64,000 bases of DNA from Salvelinus alpinus (lineage: Eukaryota > Chordata > Actinopteri > Salmoniformes > Salmonidae): contig NC_092091.1 in assembly GCF_045679555.1 (NCBI RefSeq), forward strand, positions 93,698,084-93,762,083, in the 5' to 3' direction. Below, piece by piece: positions 19,481 through 61,998 of the stretch (positions are counted from its first letter, which is position 1; each line of letters starts with the position of its first letter). The notes beneath the pieces were generated by a model, which worked only from the letters and a program-made list of their open reading frames with translations, did not search any database and was not told where the DNA came from. A program made the translations under genes and the position numbers.

Positions 19481-19734
19481 GATATCAGGATGAATTAGAG
19501 ACAATAAGGGATCGTTCTACTCTTCCAGGCTATCTCTATCTCGGGTCAACCGCATCACATCGTATCTATGGAACGCCAGCTGTAGGTTTTTTTATCACCA
19601 TCATCATGAATCAATTGTCAGCTCCGGAGGCCCAACTCAGTCCCATGGACTCTGATCAGAGTATTCGTCAAAGCTATTTGATGCATAAACCAGTAGTAAA
19701 ACAATCTTGTTATTTTTCTCTCACAAGATGGAAA
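19481..19734. other. unique spacer before Tc1 remnant
   Basis: Single-copy sequence. I see no clear Tc1 left inverted repeat, so the transposon appears 5'-truncated or replaced here. Confidence 0.35.
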
Positions 19735-20367
19735 CCACTCGTCAGTAAAAGGTACACGACAGCCCTCTTGGAGTTTTGCCAAAAGGCACCTAAAGGACTC
19801 TCAGACCATGAGAAATAAGATTCTCTGGTCTGATAAAATCCAGATTGAACTATTTGGCCTGAATGCCAAGCGTCACGTCAGGAGGAAACCTGGCTCCATC
19901 CCTATGGTGAAGCATGGTGGTGGCAGCATCATGCTGTGGGGATATTTTTCAGGGACTGGGAGACTAGTCAGGATTGAGGGAAAGATGAATGGAGCAAAGT
20001 ACAGAGGTCCTTGATGAAAACCTGCTCCAGAGCGCTCAGGACCTCAGACTGGGGCGAAGGTTCACCTTCCAACAGGACAATGACCCTAAGCACACAGCCA
20101 AGACAATACAGGAGTGGCTTCAGGACAAGTCTCAATGTCCTTGAGTGGCCCAGCCAGAGCCCGAACTTGAACCCGATCGAACATCTCTGGAGAGACCTGA
20201 AAATAGCTGTGCAGCATCACTCCCCATCCAACCTGACAGAGCTTGAGAGGATCTGCAGAGAAGAATGGGAGAAACTCCCCAAATACAGGTGTGCCAAGCT
20301 TGTAGCTCATTACCCAAGAAGACTAGAGGCTGTAATCACTGCCAAAGGTGCTTCAACAAAGTACTGA
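19735..20367 (+). pseudogene. broken Tc1 transposase (DD34E family)
   Basis: Three frame blocks together cover the catalytic core of a Tc1/mariner DDE transposase, which cuts and pastes DNA at TA targets. ILWSDK (about 19820, first D) lies in the block 19808-20014. QQDNDPKHTAK (about 20073-20105, second D) is readable only in a different frame from the block that follows. The third block, 20011-20367, carries VLEWPSQSPNLNPIEHLWRD with the catalytic E and ends AKGASTKY. At least two frameshifts, a stop at 20012-20014 and the loss of the N-terminal DNA-binding domain make it non-functional. Confidence 0.88.
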
Positions 20368-20459
20368 GTGAAGGGTCTGAATACTTATGTAAATGTGTTA
20401 TTTCATTTTTGTTTATTTGATACATTTGCAAAAATTTCTAAACCTGTTTTTGCTTTGTC
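19735..20459 (+). mobile_element. Tc1/mariner-like transposon remnant, 5'-truncated
   Basis: It contains the C-terminal two thirds of a Tc1-type transposase and the AT-rich 3' flank (AGGGTCTGAATACTTATGTA, then GTTTTTGCTTTGTCATTATGG). That wording is typical of fish Tc1 elements. The distal inverted repeat is not seen. A hAT-like element interrupts the sequence at 20468, and beyond it the Tc1 sequence gives way to an array. Confidence 0.85.
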
Positions 20460-47771: not shown

Positions 47772-47854
47772 TCAGTGGCGGTCGTAGGCGGAGGCAGATG
47801 CCGTGGCAGCCGGTCCCGCCCCTCGCGATGCCGCGCTGTAGTAGTACGGCGACC
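47772..47854 (-). CDS. pax5: pax5 terminal coding exon
   Basis: The acceptor GTGTGTGTAG is followed by 83 nt that complete the split glycine codon of the exon at 61912-61998. The peptide is SPYYYSAASRGAG, an alanine-rich run, then AYDRH and TGA. This is the conserved C terminus of PAX5 as I remember it (human ends SPYYYSAAARGAA...AYDRH). It belongs to the inhibitory/transactivation tail of the B-lineage paired-box transcription factor, which acts in the nucleus. The alanine-rich segment here is slightly expanded. The paired domain and octapeptide exons lie beyond the right edge. PAX2 and PAX8 tails are similar, but melk synteny favours pax5. Confidence 0.93.
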
Positions 47855-47970
<116 letters not shown>

Positions 47971-48218: not shown

Positions 48219-48308
48219 CTTGCATCTGTCCCGTCTGGCTGGCGGTGAAGAGCCCAGAAGAACAGCCAATCTCCGTCCCCAGCAGAGACCCATAGTCCTG
48301 TTGGAACA
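48219..48308 (-). CDS. pax5: candidate pax5 cassette exon (90 nt)
   Basis: On the minus strand a pyrimidine-rich acceptor (CTCTCTCTCAG) and a GTAGGA donor bound 90 nt that start and end in phase 1. It therefore fits between the penultimate (61912-61998) and terminal (47772-47854) exons without changing frame. In that frame it is open and encodes FQQDYGSLLGTEIGC followed by a serine/glutamine-rich stretch ending TGQMQ. The other two frames are also open, so openness alone is weak evidence. Exact phase match at both ends and good splice sites are the support. I do not recall this segment in mammalian PAX5. It may be a fish-specific alternative exon or an unused exon-like sequence. Confidence 0.5.
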
Positions 48309-49775
48309 CTGAGAGAGAGGACACCACTACAGGTTAATAACATCTCACCCCTGACCTCTGACCCCTGACCTACCATAGTCCTGTTGGAACACTGAGAGAG
48401 AGAGGACATCACTACAGGTTAATAACCTCTGACCCCTGACCTACCATAGTCCTGTTGGAACACTGAGAGAGAGGACATCACTACAGGTTAATAACCTCTG
48501 ACCCCTGACCTCCCATAGTCCTGTTGGAACACTGAGAGAGAGAGGACATCACTACAGGTTAATAACCTCTGACCCCTGACCTCTGACCCCTGACCTCCCA
48601 TAGTCCTGTTGGAACACTGAGAGAGAGAGGACATCACTACAGGTTAATAACCTCTGACCCCTGACCTCTGACCCTTGACCTCCCATAGTCCTGTTGGAAC
48701 ACTGAGAGAGAGAGGACATCACTACAGGTTAATAACCTCTGACCCCTGACCTCTGACCCCTGACCTCCCATAGTCCTGTTGGAACACTGAGAGAGAGAGG
48801 ACATCACTACAGGTTAATAACCTCTGACCCCTGACCTCCCATAGTCCTGTTGGAACACTGAGAGAGAGAGGACATCACTACAGGTTAATAACCTCTGACC
48901 CCTGACCTCCCATAGTCCTGTTGGAACACTGAGAGAGAGAGGACATCACTACAGGTTAATAACCTCTGACCCCTGACCTCCCATAGTCCTGTTGGAACAC
49001 TGAGAGAGAGAGGACATCACTACAGGTTAATAACCTCTGACCCCTGACCTCTGACCCCTGACCTCCCATAGTCCTGTTGGAACACTGAGAGAGAGAGGAC
49101 ATCACTACAGGTTAATAACCTCTGACCCCTGACCTCCCATAGTCCTGTTGGAACACTGAGAGAGAGAGGACATCACTACAGGTTAATAACCTCTGACCCC
49201 TGACCTCTGACCCCTGACCTCCCATAGTCCTGTTGGAACACTGAGAGAGAGAGGACATCACTACAGGTTAATAACCTCTGACCCCTGACCTCTGACCCTT
49301 GACCTCCCATAGTCCTGTTGGAACACTGAGAGAGAGAGGACATCACTACAGGTGAATAACCTCTGACCCCTGACCTACCATAGTCCTGTTGGAACACTGA
49401 GAGAGAGAGGACATCACTACAGGTTAATAACCTCTGACCCCTGACCTCCCATAGTCCTGTTGGAACACTGAGAGAGAGAGGACATCACTGCAGGTTAATA
49501 ACCTCTAAAACCCTGACCTCTGACCCCTGACCTCCCATAGTCCTGTTGGAACACTGAGAGAGAGGACATCACTACAGGTTAATAACCTCTGACCCCTGAC
49601 CTCTGACCCCTGACCTCCCATAGTCCTGTTGGAACACTGAGAGAGAGAGGACATCACTACAGGTTAATAACCTCTGACCCCTGACCTCCCATAGTCCTGT
49701 TGGAACACTGAGAGAGAGAGGACATCACTACAGGTGAATAACCTCTAAAACCCTGACCTCTGACCCCTGACCTTT
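48297..49775 (-). repeat. 71/87-bp array of the cassette-exon acceptor
   Basis: Nineteen copies (the exon edge itself plus eighteen upstream) of CTCTCTCTCAG followed by TGTTCCAACAGGACTATGG on the minus strand. They are separated by AGGTCAGGGGTCAGAGG, optionally duplicated by about 14-16 bases, then TTATTAACCTGTAGTGATG. In the pax5 frame each decoy reads V-F-Q-Q-D-Y-G and then meets TAA. Confidence 0.95.
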
Positions 49776-50276: not shown

Positions 50277-53200
50277 GTTGACCTCTACAGTCTACAGTAT
50301 AACCCCTGACCTCTACAGTCTACAGTATAACCCCTGACCTCTACAGTCTACAGTATAACCCCTGACCTCTACAGTCTACAGTATAACCCCTGACCTCTAC
50401 AGTCTACAGTATAACCCCTGACCTCTACAGTCTACAGTATAACCCCTGACCTCTACAGTCTACAGACTACAGTATAACCCCTGACCTCTACAATCTACAG
50501 ACTACAGTATAACCCCTGACCTCTACAATCTACAGACTACAGTATAACCCCTGACCTCTACAATCTACAGACTACAGTATAACCCCTGACCTCTACAATC
50601 TACAGACTACAGTATAACCCCTGACCTCTACAGTCTACAGTATAACCCCTGACCTCTACAGTCTACAGTATAACCCCTGACCTCTACAGTCTACAGTATA
50701 ACCCCTGACCTCTACAGTCTACAGTATAACCCCTGACCTCTACAGTCTACAGTATAACCCCCTGACCTCTACAGTCTACAGTATAACCCCTGACCTCTAC
50801 AGTCTACAGTATAACCCCTGACCTCTACAGTCTACAGTATAACCCCTGACCTCTACAGTCTACAGTATAACCCCTGACCTCTACAGTCTACAGTATAACC
50901 CCTGACCTCTACAGTCTACAGTATAACCCCTGACCTCTACAGTCTACAGTATAACCCCTGACCTCTACAGTCTACAGTATAACCCCTGACCTCTACAGTC
51001 TACAGTATAACCCCTGACCTCTACAGTCTACAGTATAACCCCTGACCTCTACAGTCTACAGTATAACCCCTGACCTCTACAGTCTACAGTATAACCCCTG
51101 ACCTCTACAGTCTACAGTATAACCCCTGACCTCTACAGTCTACAGTATAACCCCTGACCTCTACAGTCTACAGTATAACCCCTGACCTCTACAGTCTACA
51201 GTATAACCCCTGACCTCTACAGTCTACAGTATAACCCCTGACCTCTACAGTCTACAGTATAACCCCTGACCTCTACAATCTACAGTCTACAGTATAACCC
51301 CTGACCTCTACAGTCTACAGTATAACCCCTGACCTCTACAGTCTACAGTATAACCCCTGACCTCTACAGTCTACAGTATAACCCCTGACCTCTACAGTCT
51401 ACAGTATAACCCCTGACCTCTACAGTCTACAGTATAACCCCTGACCTCTACAGTCTACAGTATAACCCCTGACCTCTACAGTCTACAGTATAACCCCTGA
51501 CCTCTACAGTCTACAGTATAACCCCTGACCTCTACAGTCTACAGTATAACCCCTGACCTCTACAGTCTACAGTATAACCCCTGACCTCTACAATCTACAG
51601 TATAACCCCTGACCTCTACAGTCTACAGTATAACCCCTGACCTCTACAATCTACAGTATAACCCCTGACCTCTACAATCTACAGTATAACCCCTGACCTC
51701 TACAATCTACAGTCTACAGTATAACCCCTGACCTCTACAATCTACAGTATAACCCCTGACCTCTACAGTCTACAGTATAACCCCTGACCTCTACAGTCTA
51801 CAGTATAACCCCTGACCTCTACAGTCTACAGTATAACCCCTGACCTCTACAGTCTACAGTATAACCCCTGACCTCTACAGTCTACAGTATAACCCCTGAC
51901 CTCTACAGTCTACAGTATAACCCCTGACCTCTACAGTCTACAGTATAACCCCTGACCTCTACAGTCTACAGTATAACCCCTGACCTCTACAGTCTACAGT
52001 ATAACCCCTGACCTCTACAGTCTACAGTATAACCCCTGACCTCTACAGTCTACAGTATAACCCCTGACCTCTACAGTCTACAGTATAACCCCTGACCTCT
52101 ACAGTCTACAGTATAACCCCTGACCTCTACAATCTACAGTATAACCCCTGACCTCTACAGTCTACAGTATAACCCCTGACCTCTACAATCTACAGTATAA
52201 CCCCTGACCTCTACAATCTACAGTATAACCCCTGACCTCTACAATCTACAGTCTACAGTATAACCCCTGACCTCTACAATCTACAGTATAACCCCTGACC
52301 TCTACAATCTACAGTATAACCCCTGACCTCTACAATCTACAGTATAACCCCTGACCTCTACAATCTACAGTATAACCCCTGACCTCTACAATCTACAGTA
52401 TAACCCCTGACCTCTACAATCTACAGTATAACCCCTGACCTCTACAATCTACAGTATAACCCCTGACCTCTACAATCTACAGTATAACCCCTGACCTCTA
52501 CAATCTACAGTCTACAGTATAACCCCTGACCTCTACAATCTACAGTCTACAGTATAACCCCTGACCTCTACAATCTACAGTCTACAGTATAACCCCTGAC
52601 CTCTACAATCTACAGTCTACAGTATAACCCCTGACCTCTACAATCTACAGTCTACAGTATAACCCCTGACCTCTACAATCTACAGTCTACAGTATAACCC
52701 CTGACCTCTACAATCTACAGTCTACAGTATAACCCCTGACCTCTACAATCTACAGTCTACAGTATAACCCCCTGACCTCTACAATCTACAGTCTACAGTA
52801 TAACCCCTGACCTCTACAATCTACAGTCTACAGTATAACCCCTGACCTCTACAATCTACAGTCTACAGTATAACCCCTGACCTCTACAATCTACAGTCTA
52901 CAGTATAACCCCTGACCTCTACAATCTACAGTCTACAGTATAACCCCTGACCTCTACAATCTACAGTCTACAGTATAACCCCTGACCTCTACAATCTACA
53001 GACTACAGTATAACCCCTGACCTCTACAATCTACAGTCTACAGTATAACCCCTGACCTCTACAATCTACAGTCTACAGTATAACCCCTGACCTCTACAAT
53101 CTACAGTCTACAGTATAACCCCTGACCTCTACAATCTACAGTCTACAGTATAACCCCTGACCTCTACAATCTACAGTCTACAGTATAACCCCTGACCTCT

Positions 53201-56200
53201 ACAATCTACAGACTACAGTATAACCCCTGACCTCTACAATCTACAGTCTACAGTATAACCCCTGACCTCTACAATCTACAGTCTACAGTATAACCCCTGA
53301 CCTCTACAATCTACAGACTACAGTATAACCCCTGACCTCTACAATCTACAGACTACAGTATAACCCCTGACCTCTACAATCTACAGTCTACAGTATAACC
53401 CCTGACCTCTACAATCTACAGACTACAGTATAACCCCTGACCTCTACAATCTACAGTCTACAGTATAACCCCTGACCTCTACAATCTACAGACTACAGTA
53501 TAACCCCTGACCTCTACAATCTACAGTCTACAGTATAACCCCTGACCTCTACAATCTACAGTCTACAGTATAACCCCTGACCTCTACAATCTACAGTCTA
53601 CAGTATAACCCCTGACCTCTACAATCTACAGTCTACAGTATAACCCCTGACCTCTACAATCTACAGTCTACAGTATAACCCCTGACCTCTACAATCTACA
53701 GTCTACAGTATAACCCCTGACCTCTACAATCTACAGTCTACAGTATAACCCCTGACCTCTACAATCTACAGTCTACAGTATAACCCCTGACCTCTGCAAT
53801 CTACAGTCTACAGTATAACCCCTGACCTCTACAATCTACAGTCTACAGTATAACCTCTGACCTCTGCAATCTACAGTCTACAGTATAACCCCTGACCTCT
53901 ACAATCTACAGTCTACAGTATAACCCCTGACCTCTACAATCTACAGTCTACAGTATAACCCCTGACCTCTACAATCTACAGTCTACAGTATAACCCCTGA
54001 CCTCTACAATCTACAGTCTACAGTATAACCCCTGACCTCTACAATCTACAGTCTACAGTATAACCCCTGACCTCTACAATCTACAGACTACAGTATAACC
54101 CCTGACCTCTACAATCTACAGTCTACAGTATAACCCCTGACCTCTACAATCTACAGTCTACAGTATAACCCCTGACCTCTACAATCTACAGTCTACAGTA
54201 TAACCCCTGACCTCTACAATCTACAGTCTACAGTATAACCCCTGACCTCTACAATCTACAGTCTACAGTATAACCCCTGACCTCTACAATCTACAGTCTA
54301 CAGTATAACCCCTGACCTCTACAATCTACAGTCTACAGTATAACCCCTGACCTCTACAATCTACAGTCTACAGTATAACCCCTGACCTCTACAATCTACA
54401 GTCTACAGTATAACCCCTGACCTCTACAATCTACAGACTACAGTATAACCCCTGACCTCTACAATCTACAGTCTACAGTATAACCCCTGACCTCTACAAT
54501 CTACAATCTACAGTATAACCCCTGACCTCTACAGTCTACAGTATAACCCCTGACCTCTACAGTCTACAGTATAACCCCTGACCTCTACAGTCTACAGTAT
54601 AACCCCTGACCTCTACAGTCTACAGTATAACCCCTGACCTCTACAGTCTACAGTATAACCCCTGACCTCTACAGTCTACAGTATAACCCCTGACCTCTAC
54701 AGTCTACAGTATAACCCCTGACCTCTACAGTCTACAGTATAACCCCTGACCTCTACAGTCTACAGTATAACCCCTGACCTCTACAGTCTACAGTATAACC
54801 CCTGACCTCTACAGTCTACAGTATAACCCCTGACCTCTACAATCTACAGTCTACAGTATAACCCCTGACCTCTACAGTCTACAGTATAACCCCTGACCTC
54901 TACAGTCTACAGTATAACCCCTGACCTCTACAGTCTACAGTATAACCCCTGACCTCTACAGTCTACAGTATAACCCCTGACCTCTACAGTCTACAGTATA
55001 ACCCCTGACCTCTACAGTCTACAGTATAACCCCTGACCTCTACAGTCTACAGTATAACCCCTGACCTCTACAGTCTACAGTATAACCCCTGACCTCTACA
55101 GTCTACAGTATAACCCCTGACCTCTACAGTCTACAGTATAACCCCTGACCTCTACAATCTACAGTATAACCCCTGACCTCTACAGTCTACAGTATAACCC
55201 CTGACCTCTACAATCTACAGTATAACCCCTGACCTCTACAATCTACAGTATAACCCCTGACCTCTACAATCTACAGTCTACAGTATAACCCCTGACCTCT
55301 ACAATCTACAGTATAACCCCTGACCTCTACAGTCTACAGTATAACCCCTGACCTCTACAGTCTACAGTATAACCCCTGACCTCTACAGTCTACAGTATAA
55401 CCCCTGACCTCTACAGTCTACAGTATAACCCCTGACCTCTACAGTCTACAGTATAACCCCTGACCTCTACAGTCTACAGTATAACCCCTGACCTCTACAG
55501 TCTACAGTATAACCCCTGACCTCTACAGTCTACAGTATAACCCCTGACCTCTACAGTCTACAGTATAACCCCTGACCTCTACAGTCTACAGTATAACCCC
55601 TGACCTCTACAGTCTACAGTATAACCCCTGACCTCTACAGTCTACAGTATAACCCCTGACCTCTACAGTCTACAGTATAACCCCTGACCTCTACAATCTA
55701 CAGTATAACCCCTGACCTCTACAGTCTACAGTATAACCCCTGACCTCTACAATCTACAGTATAACCCCTGACCTCTACAATCTACAGTATAACCCCTGAC
55801 CTCTACAATCTACAGTCTACAGTATAACCCCTGACCTCTACAATCTACAGTATAACCCCTGACCTCTACAATCTACAGTATAACCCCTGACCTCTACAAT
55901 CTACAGTATAACCCCTGACCTCTACAATCTACAGTATAACCCCTGACCTCTACAATCTACAGTATAACCCCTGACCTCTACAATCTACAGTATAACCCCT
56001 GACCTCTACAATCTACAGTATAACCCCTGACCTCTACAATCTACAGTATAACCCCTGACCTCTACAATCTACAGTCTACAGTATAACCCCTGACCTCTAC
56101 AATCTACAGTCTACAGTATAACCCCTGACCTCTACAATCTACAGTCTACAGTATAACCCCTGACCTCTACAATCTACAGTCTACAGTATAACCCCTGACC

Positions 56201-59200
56201 TCTACAATCTACAGTCTACAGTATAACCCCTGACCTCTACAATCTACAGTCTACAGTATAACCCCTGACCTCTACAATCTACAGTCTACAGTATAACCCC
56301 TGACCTCTACAATCTACAGTCTACAGTATAACCCCCTGACCTCTACAATCTACAGTCTACAGTATAACCCCTGACCTCTACAATCTACAGTCTACAGTAT
56401 AACCCCTGACCTCTACAATCTACAGTCTACAGTATAACCCCTGACCTCTACAATCTACAGTCTACAGTATAACCCCTGACCTCTACAATCTACAGTCTAC
56501 AGTATAACCCCTGACCTCTACAATCTACAGTCTACAGTATAACCCCTGACCTCTACAATCTACAGACTACAGTATAACCCCTGACCTCTACAATCTACAG
56601 TCTACAGTATAACCCCTGACCTCTACAATCTACAGTCTACAGTATAACCCCTGACCTCTACAATCTACAGTCTACAGTATAACCCCTGACCTCTACAATC
56701 TACAGTCTACAGTATAACCCCTGACCTCTACAATCTACAGTCTACAGTATAACCCCTGACCTCTACAATCTACAGACTACAGTATAACCCCTGACCTCTA
56801 CAATCTACAGTCTACAGTATAACCCCTGACCTCTACAATCTACAGTCTACAGTATAACCCCTGACCTCTACAATCTACAGACTACAGTATAACCCCTGAC
56901 CTCTACAATCTACAGACTACAGTATAACCCCTGACCTCTACAATCTACAGTCTACAGTATAACCCCTGACCTCTACAATCTACAGACTACAGTATAACCC
57001 CTGACCTCTACAATCTACAGTCTACAGTATAACCCCTGACCTCTACAATCTACAGACTACAGTATAACCCCTGACCTCTACAATCTACAGTCTACAGTAT
57101 AACCCCTGACCTCTACAATCTACAGTCTACAGTATAACCCCTGACCTCTACAATCTACAGTCTACAGTATAACCCCTGACCTCTACAATCTACAGTCTAC
57201 AGTATAACCCCTGACCTCTACAATCTACAGTCTACAGTATAACCCCTGACCTCTACAATCTACAGTCTACAGTATAACCCCTGACCTCTACAATCTACAG
57301 TCTACAGTATAACCCCTGACCTCTACAATCTACAGTCTACAGTATAACCCCTGACCTCTGCAATCTACAGTCTACAGTATAACCCCTGACCTCTACAATC
57401 TACAGTCTACAGTATAACCTCTGACCTCTGCAATCTACAGTCTACAGTATAACCCCTGACCTCTACAATCTACAGTCTACAGTATAACCCCTGACCTCTA
57501 CAATCTACAGTCTACAGTATAACCCCTGACCTCTACAATCTACAGTCTACAGTATAACCCCTGACCTCTACAATCTACAGTCTACAGTATAACCCCTGAC
57601 CTCTACAATCTACAGTCTACAGTATAACCCCTGACCTCTACAATCTACAGACTACAGTATAACCCCTGACCTCTACAATCTACAGTCTACAGTATAACCC
57701 CTGACCTCTACAATCTACAGTCTACAGTATAACCCCTGACCTCTACAATCTACAGTCTACAGTATAACCCCTGACCTCTACAATCTACAGTCTACAGTAT
57801 AACCCCTGACCTCTACAATCTACAGTCTACAGTATAACCCCTGACCTCTACAATCTACAGTCTACAGTATAACCCCTGACCTCTACAATCTACAGTCTAC
57901 AGTATAACCCCTGACCTCTACAATCTACAGTCTACAGTATAACCCCTGACCTCTACAATCTACAGTCTACAGTATAACCCCTGACCTCTACAATCTACAG
58001 ACTACAGTATAACCCCTGACCTCTACAATCTACAGTCTACAGTATAACCCCTGACCTCTACAATCTACAGTCTACAGTATAACCCCTGACCTTCTACAAT
58101 CTACAGTCTACAGTATAACCCCTGACCTCTACAATCTACAGTCTACAGTATAACCCCTGACCTCTACAATCTACAGTCTACAGTATAACCCCTGACCTCT
58201 ACAATCTACAGTCTACAGTATAACCCCTGACCTCTACAGTCTACAGTATAACCCCTGACCTCTACAATCTACAGTCTACAGTATAACCCCTGACCTCTAC
58301 AATCTACAGTCTACAGTATAACCCCTGACCTCTACAATCTACAGTCTACAGTATAACCCCTGACCTCTACAATCTACAGTCTACAGTATAACCCCTGACC
58401 TCTACAATCTACAGTCTACAGTATAACCCCTGACCTCTACAATCTACAGTCTACAGTATAACCCCTGACCTCTACAATCTACAGTCTACAGTATAACCCC
58501 TGACCTCTACAATCTACAGTCTACAGTATAACCCCTGACCTCTACAATCTACAGACTACAGTATAACCCCTGACCTCTACAATCTACAGTCTACAGTATA
58601 ACCCCTGACCTCTACAATCTACAGTCTACAGTATAACCCCTGACCTCTACAATCTACAGTCTACAGTATAACCCCTGACCTCTACAATCTACAGACTACA
58701 GTATAACCCCTGACCTCTACAATCTACAGTCTACAGTATAACCCCTGACCTCTACAATCTACAGTCTACAGTATAACCCCTGACCTCTACAATCTACAGA
58801 CTACAGTATAACCCCTGACCTCTACAATCTACAGTCTACAGTATAACCCCTGACCTCTACAATCTACAGTCTACAGTATAACCCCTGACCTCTACAATCT
58901 ACAGACTACAGTATAACCCCTGATCTCTACAATCTACAGTCTACAGTATAACCCCTGACCTCTACAATCTACAGACTACAGTATAACCCCTGACCTCTAC
59001 AATCTACAGTCTACAGTATAACCCCTGACCTCTACAATCTACAGTCTACAGTATAACACCTGACCTCTACAATCTACAGTCTACAGTATAACCCCTGACC
59101 TCTACAATCTACAGTCTACAGTATAACCCCTGACCTCTACAATCTACAGACTACAGTATAACCCCTGACCTCTACCAATCTACAGACTACAGTATAACCC

Positions 59201-61718
59201 CTGACCTCTACAATCTACAGTCTACAGTATAACCCCTGACCTCTACAATCTACAGTCTACAGTATAACCCCTGACCTCTACAATCTACAGTCTACAGTAT
59301 AACCCCTGACCTCTACAATCTACAGTCTACAGTATAACCCCTGACCTCTACAATCTACAGACTACAGTATAACCCCTGACCTCTACAATCTATAGTCTAC
59401 AGTATAACCCCTGACCTCTACAGTCTACAGTATAACCCCTGACCTCTACAATCTACAGTCTACAGTATAACCCCTGACCTCTACAATCTACAGTCTACAG
59501 TATAACCCCTGACCTCTACAATCTACAGTCTACAGTATAACCCCTGACCTCTACAATCTACAGTCTACAGTATAACCCCTGACCTCTACAATCTACAGTC
59601 TACAGTATAACCCCTGACCTCTACAATCTACAGTCTACAGTATAACCCCTGACCTCTACAATCTACAGTCTACAGTATAACCCCTGACCTCTACAATCTA
59701 CAGTCTACAGTATAACCCCTGACCTCTACAATCTACAGTCTACAGTATAACCCCTGACCTCTACAATCTACAGTCTACAGTATAACCCCTGACCTCTACA
59801 ATCTACAGTCTACAGTATAACCCCTGACCTCTACAATCTACAGTCTACAGTATAACCCCTGACCTCTACAATCTACAGTATAACCCCTGACCTCTACAAT
59901 CTACAGTCTACAGTATAACCCCTGACCTCTATAATCTACAGTCTACAGTATAATCCCTGACCTCTACAATCTATAGACTACAGTATAACCCCTGACCTCT
60001 ACAATCTACAGTCTACAGTATAACCCCTGACCTCTACAATCTATAGACTACAGTATAACCCCTGACCTCTACAATCTACAGTATAACCCCTGACCTCTAC
60101 AATCTACAGTCTACAGTATAACCCCTGACCTCTACAATCTACAGACTACAGTATAACCCCTGACCTCTACAATCTACAGTCTACAGTATAACCCCTGACC
60201 TCTACAATCTACAGTCTACAGTATAACACCTGACCTCTACAATCTACAGTCTACAGTATAACCCCTGACCTCTACAATCTACAGTCTACAGTATAACCCC
60301 TGACCTCTACAATCTACAGACTACAGTATAACCCCTGACCTCTACCAATCTACAGACTACAGTATAACCCCTGACCTCTACAATCTACAGTCTACAGTAT
60401 AACCCCTGACCTCTACAATCTACAGTCTACAGTATAACCCCTGACCTCTACAATCTACAGTCTACAGTATAACCCCTGACCTCTACAATCTACAGTCTAC
60501 AGTATAACCCCTGACCTCTACAATCTACAGACTACAGTATAACCCCTGACCTCTACAATCTATAGTCTACAGTATAACCCCTGACCTCTACAGTCTACAG
60601 TATAACCCCTGACCTCTACAATCTACAGTCTACAGTATAACCCCTGACCTCTACAATCTACAGTCTACAGTATAACCCCTGACCTCTACAATCTACAGTC
60701 TACAGTATAACCCCTGACCTCTACAATCTACAGTCTACAGTATAACCCCTGACCTCTACAATCTACAGTCTACAGTATAACCCCTGACCTCTACAATCTA
60801 CAGTCTACAGTATAACCCCTGACCTCTACAATCTACAGTCTACAGTATAACCCCTGACCTCTACAATCTACAGTCTACAGTATAACCCCTGACCTCTACA
60901 ATCTACAGTCTACAGTATAACCCCTGACCTCTACAATCTACAGTCTACAGTATAACCCCTGACCTCTACAATCTACAGTCTACAGTATAACCCCTGACCT
61001 CTACAATCTACAGTATAACCCCTGACCTCTACAATCTACAGTCTACAGTATAACCCCTGACCTCTATAATCTACAGTCTACAGTATAATCCCTGACCTCT
61101 ACAATCTATAGACTACAGTATAACCCCTGACCTCTACAATCTACAGTCTACAGTATAACCCCTGACCTCTACAATCTATAGACTACAGTATAACCCCTGA
61201 CCTCTACAATCTACAGTATAACCCCTGACCTCTACAATCTACAGTCTACAGTATAACCCCTGACCTCTACAATCTACAGTCTACAGTATAACCCCTGACC
61301 TTCTACAATCTACAGACTACAGTATAACCCCTGACCTCTACAATCTACAGTCTACAGTATAACCCCTGACCTCTACAATCTACAGTCTACAGTATAACCC
61401 CTGACCTCTACAATCTACAGACTACAGTATAACCCCTGACCTCTACAATCTACAGTCTACAGTATAACCCCTGACCTCTACAATCTACAGTCTACAGTAT
61501 AACCCCTGACCTCTACAATCTACAGTCTACAGTATAACCCCTGACCTCTACAATCTACAGACTACAGTATAACCCCTGACCTCTACAATCTACAGTCTAC
61601 AGTATAACCCCTGACCTCTACAATCTACAGTCTACAGTATAACCCCTGACCTCTACAATCTACAGACTACAGTATAACCCCTGACCTCTACAATCTACAG
61701 ACTACAGTATAACCCCTG
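50277..61718. repeat. 11.4-kb 28/35-bp array in pax5 intron
   Basis: A 28-bp unit (ACCTCTACAGTCTACAGTAT plus AACCCCTG) and a 35-bp form with an extra seven bases (ACCTCTACAATCTACAGTCT...) fill nearly the whole intron. Rare markers reveal higher-order duplications. CCTCTGCAAT at 53791 and 57355, and the isolated CAATC units at 51276/54840 and 51591/55155, are all 3,564 apart. CTACCAATC, AACACC and TATAGTC markers at 59.1-59.4 kb recur 1,170 bases later. Confidence 0.97.
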
Positions 61719-61911
61719 ACCCCCTAACCTAGTGTCCAGCACAGCCTGAACCTCAACCTCCAGTAATATCAAATTCACACATAAGGGGCTCTGCTCAAAA
61801 GTAGTGCACTAAATAGAGAATTAGGGGTGTCTTTGAGTTGAGATGGAACGGTTGATTGGTTAATTGGGGATGGAATAATGTCCGTGATTGGTGTAGGGGT
61901 TATTGCCTTAC
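61719..61911. other. unique intron start of pax5 with half element
   Basis: Single-copy sequence between the pax5 donor (GTAAGG, minus strand at 61906-61911) and the array. Positions 61783-61838 carry half of the TAGTGCAC element (GGGCTCTGCTCAAAAGTAGT, GAATTAGGGGTGTC). Confidence 0.55.
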
Positions 61912-61998
61912 CTAACAGGCTGGGGTTTGGAAATCTCCACGACTCGTTATATGTGGAATACTGAGGGTGGGAATAGGGACTCCCGGAGAAATCTCCTC
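61912..61998 (-). CDS. pax5: pax5 penultimate coding exon
   Basis: On the minus strand TTTCTGTTCCAG precedes 87 nt ending before GTAAGG. The exon starts and ends in phase 1. It encodes GDFSGS, then [19 protein letters not shown] and SLL. This matches human PAX5 ([28 protein letters not shown] as remembered, in the C-terminal transactivation region). The split glycine is completed by the terminal exon at 47854, 14 kb away. The acceptor region is dominated by the decamer array at 62.0-63.6 kb. Identification as pax5, rather than pax2 or pax8, rests on WRFPNP and on the melk neighbour. Confidence 0.94.

Follow-up and report, generated by a model that had tools for sequence, protein, structure and literature searches.

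A minisatellite carrying 19 copies of a pax5 splice acceptor in Arctic charr, a probable by-product of repeat turnover

The apparent pax5 gene of Arctic charr (Salvelinus alpinus) holds a tandem array in which the acceptor of a 90-nt exon, together with the start of that exon, is multiplied to 19 copies, 18 of them decoys upstream of the authentic site. This array is probably a mirage minisatellite, akin to the amphioxus mirages, which are described as minisatellite-like duplications of intron-exon boundaries (PMC3087553); as such it would be a by-product of repeat turnover that is mostly tolerated by splicing, and no evolved switch. The features concerned lie as follows in the window, the whole stretch of 64,000 nt that was analysed (G000:C6:93698084-93762083).

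61912..61998, minus strand: 87-nt pax5 exon preceding the array, with donor TTAG/GTAAGG, assigned by translation and by the match of the joined peptide to Pfam Pax2_C
48309..49760, minus strand: boundary-spanning minisatellite, its 18 decoy units mostly 71 or 85 bp long with a few of 69, 83 or 86, delimited by repeat and 19-mer searches
48219..48308, minus strand: 90-nt exon VFQQDYGSLLGTEIGCSSGLFTASQTGQMQ, phase 1-1, whose acceptor is array unit 19; identical peptide in Pax5 of many teleosts
47772..47854, minus strand: last pax5 coding exon (GSPYYYSAASRGAGPAATASASAYDRH, then the stop), assigned by translation; (TG)n reaches its AG

By inference, the gene on the minus strand of the window is pax5, as the first-pass annotation had it, and that of Arctic charr: the C-terminal 85 residues of the S. 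alpinus Pax-5 isoform X3 model (P0027) are the residues encoded by the three window exons, of 87 nt (61998-61912), 90 nt (48308-48219) and, for the last, coding from 47854. All of their junctions are of phase 1, and both the exon end that had been proposed at 61912 and the proposed 90-nt exon at 48219-48308 stand, the former with its TTAG/GTAAGG donor and the latter with phase 1 in and out. At the last exon, (TG)53 followed by TAG (47855-47963) replaces the pyrimidine tract, leaving a poor acceptor. In the Pax2/5/8 and Pax6 genes, most reported splice events affect the C-terminal domains (PMC4488758), and PMC9456430 cites a publication on the alternative splicing of pax5 in trout. A second pax5 was sought as a natural control, and none was recognised besides the C6 locus among 104 matches read by eye (1628 first-look candidates, 104 scored), the other matches resembling other Pax genes.

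Each unit of the array consists of the intron end, its AG and the initial 19 nt of the next exon. Nineteen exact copies of the 19-mer TGTTCCAACAGGACTATGG lie on the minus strand, the foremost with its first base at 49707 and the last, which is the start of the 90-nt exon, with its first base at 48308, and CTCTCTCAG precedes the exon start in every one of the 19; no further TGTTCCAACAGGACTATGG copies occur in the window on either strand, allowing up to three substitutions. A YTNAY branch-point-like motif is found 26-28 nt before the exon start in all units (TTAAC in 17, TTCAC in 2). The initial count of 19 tandem copies, 18 of them extra, each keeping tract, AG and exon start, is thus confirmed throughout. 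TRF places the array at 48343-49760. The 18 spacings between 19-mers range over 69-86 bp, namely 71 (8), 85 (6), 83 (2), 86 (1) and 69 (1), and the aligned units fall into a 71-bp and an 85-bp form, a 14-bp step apart; the unit lengths first given, 71 and 87 bp, are right for the former and should read 85 for the latter. A DNA search of the same genome, one that skips very common words, located the array and exon in a single place only, and viral contigs yielded 0 matches to the array.

Inner units are nearly identical, and the edge unit on the exon side (48308) is the most diverged, with three private bases. Within a shared core of 72 columns, the final 30, made up of CTCTCTCTCAG and the 19-mer, are invariant, and the nine variable sites are all upstream of them. 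The invariance of the acceptor end hints at constraint, its chance being about 0.008 if sites were independent, a figure for a pattern noticed afterwards in units whose independence is broken by homogenisation. RNA structure was considered as a cause of the repeat and rejected, as the unit and the true site fold no better than shuffled sequences (z 0.62, 0.74, 0.86). Assemblies can mis-size tandem arrays, and the copy number itself might on that account be an assembly artefact; this is very improbable, as the scattered variants, the mixture of 71- and 85-bp units and the diverged edge unit are unlike one block copied by error.

A first protein search recovered the 90-nt exon from a Pax-5 model of Oncorhynchus keta and from three unnamed ORFs that continue from intron sequence into the exon. 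A second search, its query padded to reach full-length proteins, yielded, from 203 candidates, 182 proteins at E<=10, and the peptide VFQQDYG is present in 120/120 of the best-listed of these, the decoy reading RSGVRG in 0/120; the query for the 120 was the exon itself, and the count thus gives no share of Pax5 proteins that carry it. The named carriers among the matches listed, read by eye, are teleosts, including Megalops, Esox, Osmerus and many percomorphs, and the S. alpinus model P0027 likewise contains the exon, so that what had been a candidate cassette exon is real. An eel protein (P0006) is without it, as, to our knowledge, is human PAX5. Because its peptide occurs in Pax5 of teleosts far from salmonids, the exon is evidently old and predates the array, which holds only its first 19 nt and is derived from it. 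On structural grounds, the charr array belongs with the mirage minisatellites: its unit spans an exon-intron boundary (19 copies), AG and tract are retained in 18/18 decoys, homogenised inner units are flanked by a diverged edge unit, and the boundary is that of a real exon, older than the array, whose peptide is seen in teleost Pax5 and in the S. alpinus model. Another AG, in frame with the 90-nt exon, precedes the true acceptor by 18 nt (48309-48326). In two Oncorhynchus tshawytscha models AMSSLS stands ahead of VFQQDY, as if an AG about 18 nt upstream were used, with the upstream exon skipped.

The surroundings are rich in repeats. Tandem repeats, in 39 merged arrays with a period of at least 10, make up 76% of the window, and account for 94% of the array's intron and 48% of the short intron after the 90-nt exon. 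They occupy 94% of the readable bases in the next stretch upstream, and 15-100% (mean 69%) of ten 10-kb stretches upstream, where unread bases were treated as non-repeat; on C1-C9, ten stretches of 10 kb taken at round-number positions contain 0-62% (mean 22%). Within the same intron as the array lies a second, far longer minisatellite.

50312..61721, minus strand: neighbouring 35-bp minisatellite of about 350 copies in the array's intron, sharing the 12-mer GAGGTCAGGGGT with the array unit

A common origin of the two was set aside: the shared 12-mer exceeds 1000/1000 shuffles, but plain CT repeats equal it. Elsewhere in the window, at 19700-20370, plus-strand open frames are present, which we take to resemble pieces of a Tc1-type transposase.

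A second boundary of the same gene has been multiplied. At the donor of exon 3, which encodes part of the paired domain, the terminal ~75 nt of the exon and the donor GTACGTAGCAGAG occur in three copies, which lie 103-104 bp apart with 97% matches and are followed by an 81-copy array of 26 bp.

L029 2409-2723 (G000:C6, about 93882608-93882922), minus strand: exon 3 donor array of three copies, from the sequence of the locus

Two base changes, absent from the real exon, are common to both intronic copies. On this sequence the exon 3 array is, in our reading, a second mirage, on the donor side. When 28-mers over the 13 splice boundaries of the seven pax5 exons located were sought with up to three substitutions, over 20 kb for five exons and over the examined locus for exons 2 and 3, two boundaries proved to be multiplied, the cassette acceptor 19-fold and the exon 3 donor threefold, and the other 11 were single. 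Two boundary arrays in one repeat-swollen gene would fit repeat turnover, and a cassette switch would not predict the second. The exon 3 array and the 94%-repeat intron together make repeat turnover a sufficient cause, and the regulatory role that had been proposed, with copy number tuning the splice choice, is left unsupported. The exon 3 array also suggests that further mirages are possible in repeat-swollen salmonid genes. Domain searches, which are of low sensitivity, reveal only exon copies long enough to score and give no measure of mirage frequency, found no neighbouring repeats of one domain part among 119 hormone-receptor matches read by eye (150/275 candidates scored), and none by eye among the matches listed of 168 to the myosin head (64/982 candidates scored). 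A hormone-receptor exon next to a very long open frame was examined in sequence and is no mirage, only adjoining CA and CCT repeats.

The decoys look usable as acceptors. On a rough matrix, 16 of the 18 score 11.04 and two 9.82, compared with 9.82 for the true acceptor, 10.84 for that of the upstream exon and 3.77 for that of the last exon, and 16/18 therefore outscore the true site; by the same rough matrix, the 19 array acceptors rank in the highest 0.7% among the 6,118 AGs of that strand. The first-pass annotation was thus correct in ascribing acceptor marks to each decoy, which has the branch-point-like motif, the pyrimidine tract, the AG and the same exon start. Read on in frame, the decoys reach TAA after 14 codons (n=8), TGA after 15 (n=1), TAA after 19 (n=1), or TAG after 21 (n=7), and one, copy 49396, stops after 73; a TAA within about 15 codons, as originally stated, holds for about half of them and fails for the rest, although a stop is met in 18/18.

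Joined to the true donor, the decoys would give exons of 173-1489 nt, and in 18/18 cases the stop would fall 126-1445 nt ahead of the junction. By the usual distance rule, a stop well upstream of an exon junction leads to mRNA decay, and since all 18 stops lie so placed, decay is a likelier outcome of decoy use than a truncated Pax5, contrary to the truncation that had been anticipated. The same features could be read as a switch between productive and unproductive splicing, where use of an array AG yields an extended exon with an early stop and the copy number sets the loss of pax5 mRNA. For such a switch speak the complete acceptor signals of every decoy, the scores above the true site in 16/18, the ordinary size of the exons from the nearest decoys (173, 244 and 313 nt) and the stops at least 126 nt before the junction in all 18 extensions. 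It is nevertheless unlikely, as the exon 3 mirage shows that such arrays arise in pax5 without switch logic, and in the annotated S. alpinus model (P0027) the upstream exon is spliced to the authentic acceptor. No decoy-tail protein was found at E<=10 among 152 candidates, a weak argument in a collection clustered at 90% identity and for decay targets, which are seldom annotated.

Three copies (49396, 48462 and 48391) bear a donor-like ATG/GTAGGT 18 nt in, with a rough score of 8.22 against 8.63 for the true donor, and would delimit candidate microexons.

49379..49396, minus strand: candidate 18-nt in-frame microexon (VFQQDY), a decoy with ATG/GTAGGT, donor score 8.22
48445..48462, minus strand: candidate 18-nt microexon, second copy, ATG/GTAGGT, 8.22
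48374..48391, minus strand: candidate 18-nt microexon, third copy, ATG/GTAGGT, 8.22

It is conceivable, and distinctly improbable, that the array works as a bank of acceptors tuned by copy number, in which decoys are sometimes used and lower Pax5 by decay, the three GTAGGT copies are spliced as VFQQDY microexons, and repeat length sets the isoform balance of each fish. The array might also serve as a binding platform, its 19 CU-rich tracts gathering a repressor such as PTBP1, which prefers CU-rich RNA, and thereby lowering inclusion of the exon as copies are added. The density of CTCTCT is indeed 37 per kb in the array, compared with 7 per kb on that strand overall, but CU-rich repeats adjoin other pax5 acceptors as well, so the signal is not special to the 90-nt exon, and a platform of this kind seems quite unlikely.

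The by-product explanation would proceed as follows. Repeat turnover in what is now a 94%-repeat intron would have taken in the acceptor of an old pax5 exon together with that exon's first 19 nt, and the captured boundary unit would then have been expanded and homogenised. The spliceosome presumably passes over the 18 decoys for the most part, since the last acceptor alone has a good donor at a distance of 90 nt, a position that exon definition would favour. Rare use of a decoy would produce long exons with early stops, to be removed by nonsense-mediated decay, with probably a small net effect on Pax5. As all 18 decoys keep their AG and 16 outscore the true acceptor, such silence would not be written in the sequence; these intact AGs, the high decoy scores and the invariant acceptor-end columns hint against the by-product explanation, and the lack of further mirages in the low-sensitivity domain searches also counts against it. 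In its favour may be counted the diverged exon-side edge unit, the authentic junction in the S. alpinus model and the amphioxus mirages, which were reported to leave splicing undisturbed (PMC3087553, PMC3902484).

Should splicing be accurate here, the locus would offer a natural test of acceptor choice, in which 19 near-identical acceptors, 16 of them outscoring the true one on the rough matrix, are separated mainly by position and by the downstream exon and donor. Should it be inaccurate, a repeat that possibly varies among individuals would tune a master B-cell gene.

Among known systems, the array resembles the poison exons of AS-NMD in that splicing to a decoy would introduce a premature stop well ahead of an exon junction, as found for 18/18 decoys under the usual distance rule. 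It resembles human IFI6 (6-16), whose minisatellite supplies splice donors (PMC4526556), as a vertebrate minisatellite with units carrying splice sites. It differs from both in that its sites are candidates, and from IFI6 in lying on the acceptor side, the IFI6 repeat being donor-side and shown to be used. The closest likeness in form is to the amphioxus mirages, reported from the globins BflGb6 and BflGb9 and from Adh3, TnC and PGBD5 (PMC3087553, PMC3902484). In BflGb6 the repeated unit comprises an intron's 3' end and the 5' part of an exon, with 6 and 3 units in two haplotypes; splice signals survive in many of the amphioxus units, though not all, homogenisation spares the edge units, and both the Adh3 data and RT-PCR of the globins pointed to splicing that is not disturbed (PMC3087553). 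The PGBD5 repeats are described as similar, and Adh and TnC as without reported aberrant mRNAs (PMC3902484). Among the listings of literature searches over open-licence papers there was no vertebrate mirage on the acceptor side. The amphioxus cases have RT-PCR and haplotype variation behind them, whereas the charr array is known from a single assembly, and its unit is 71/85 bp compared with 150-160 bp in BflGb6. Tandem duplication of a boundary, retention of splice signals and divergence of an edge unit are nonetheless common to both, and with 19 acceptor copies, compared with the 6 and 3 of BflGb6, the charr array would carry amphioxus-type mirages into a vertebrate gene, pax5.
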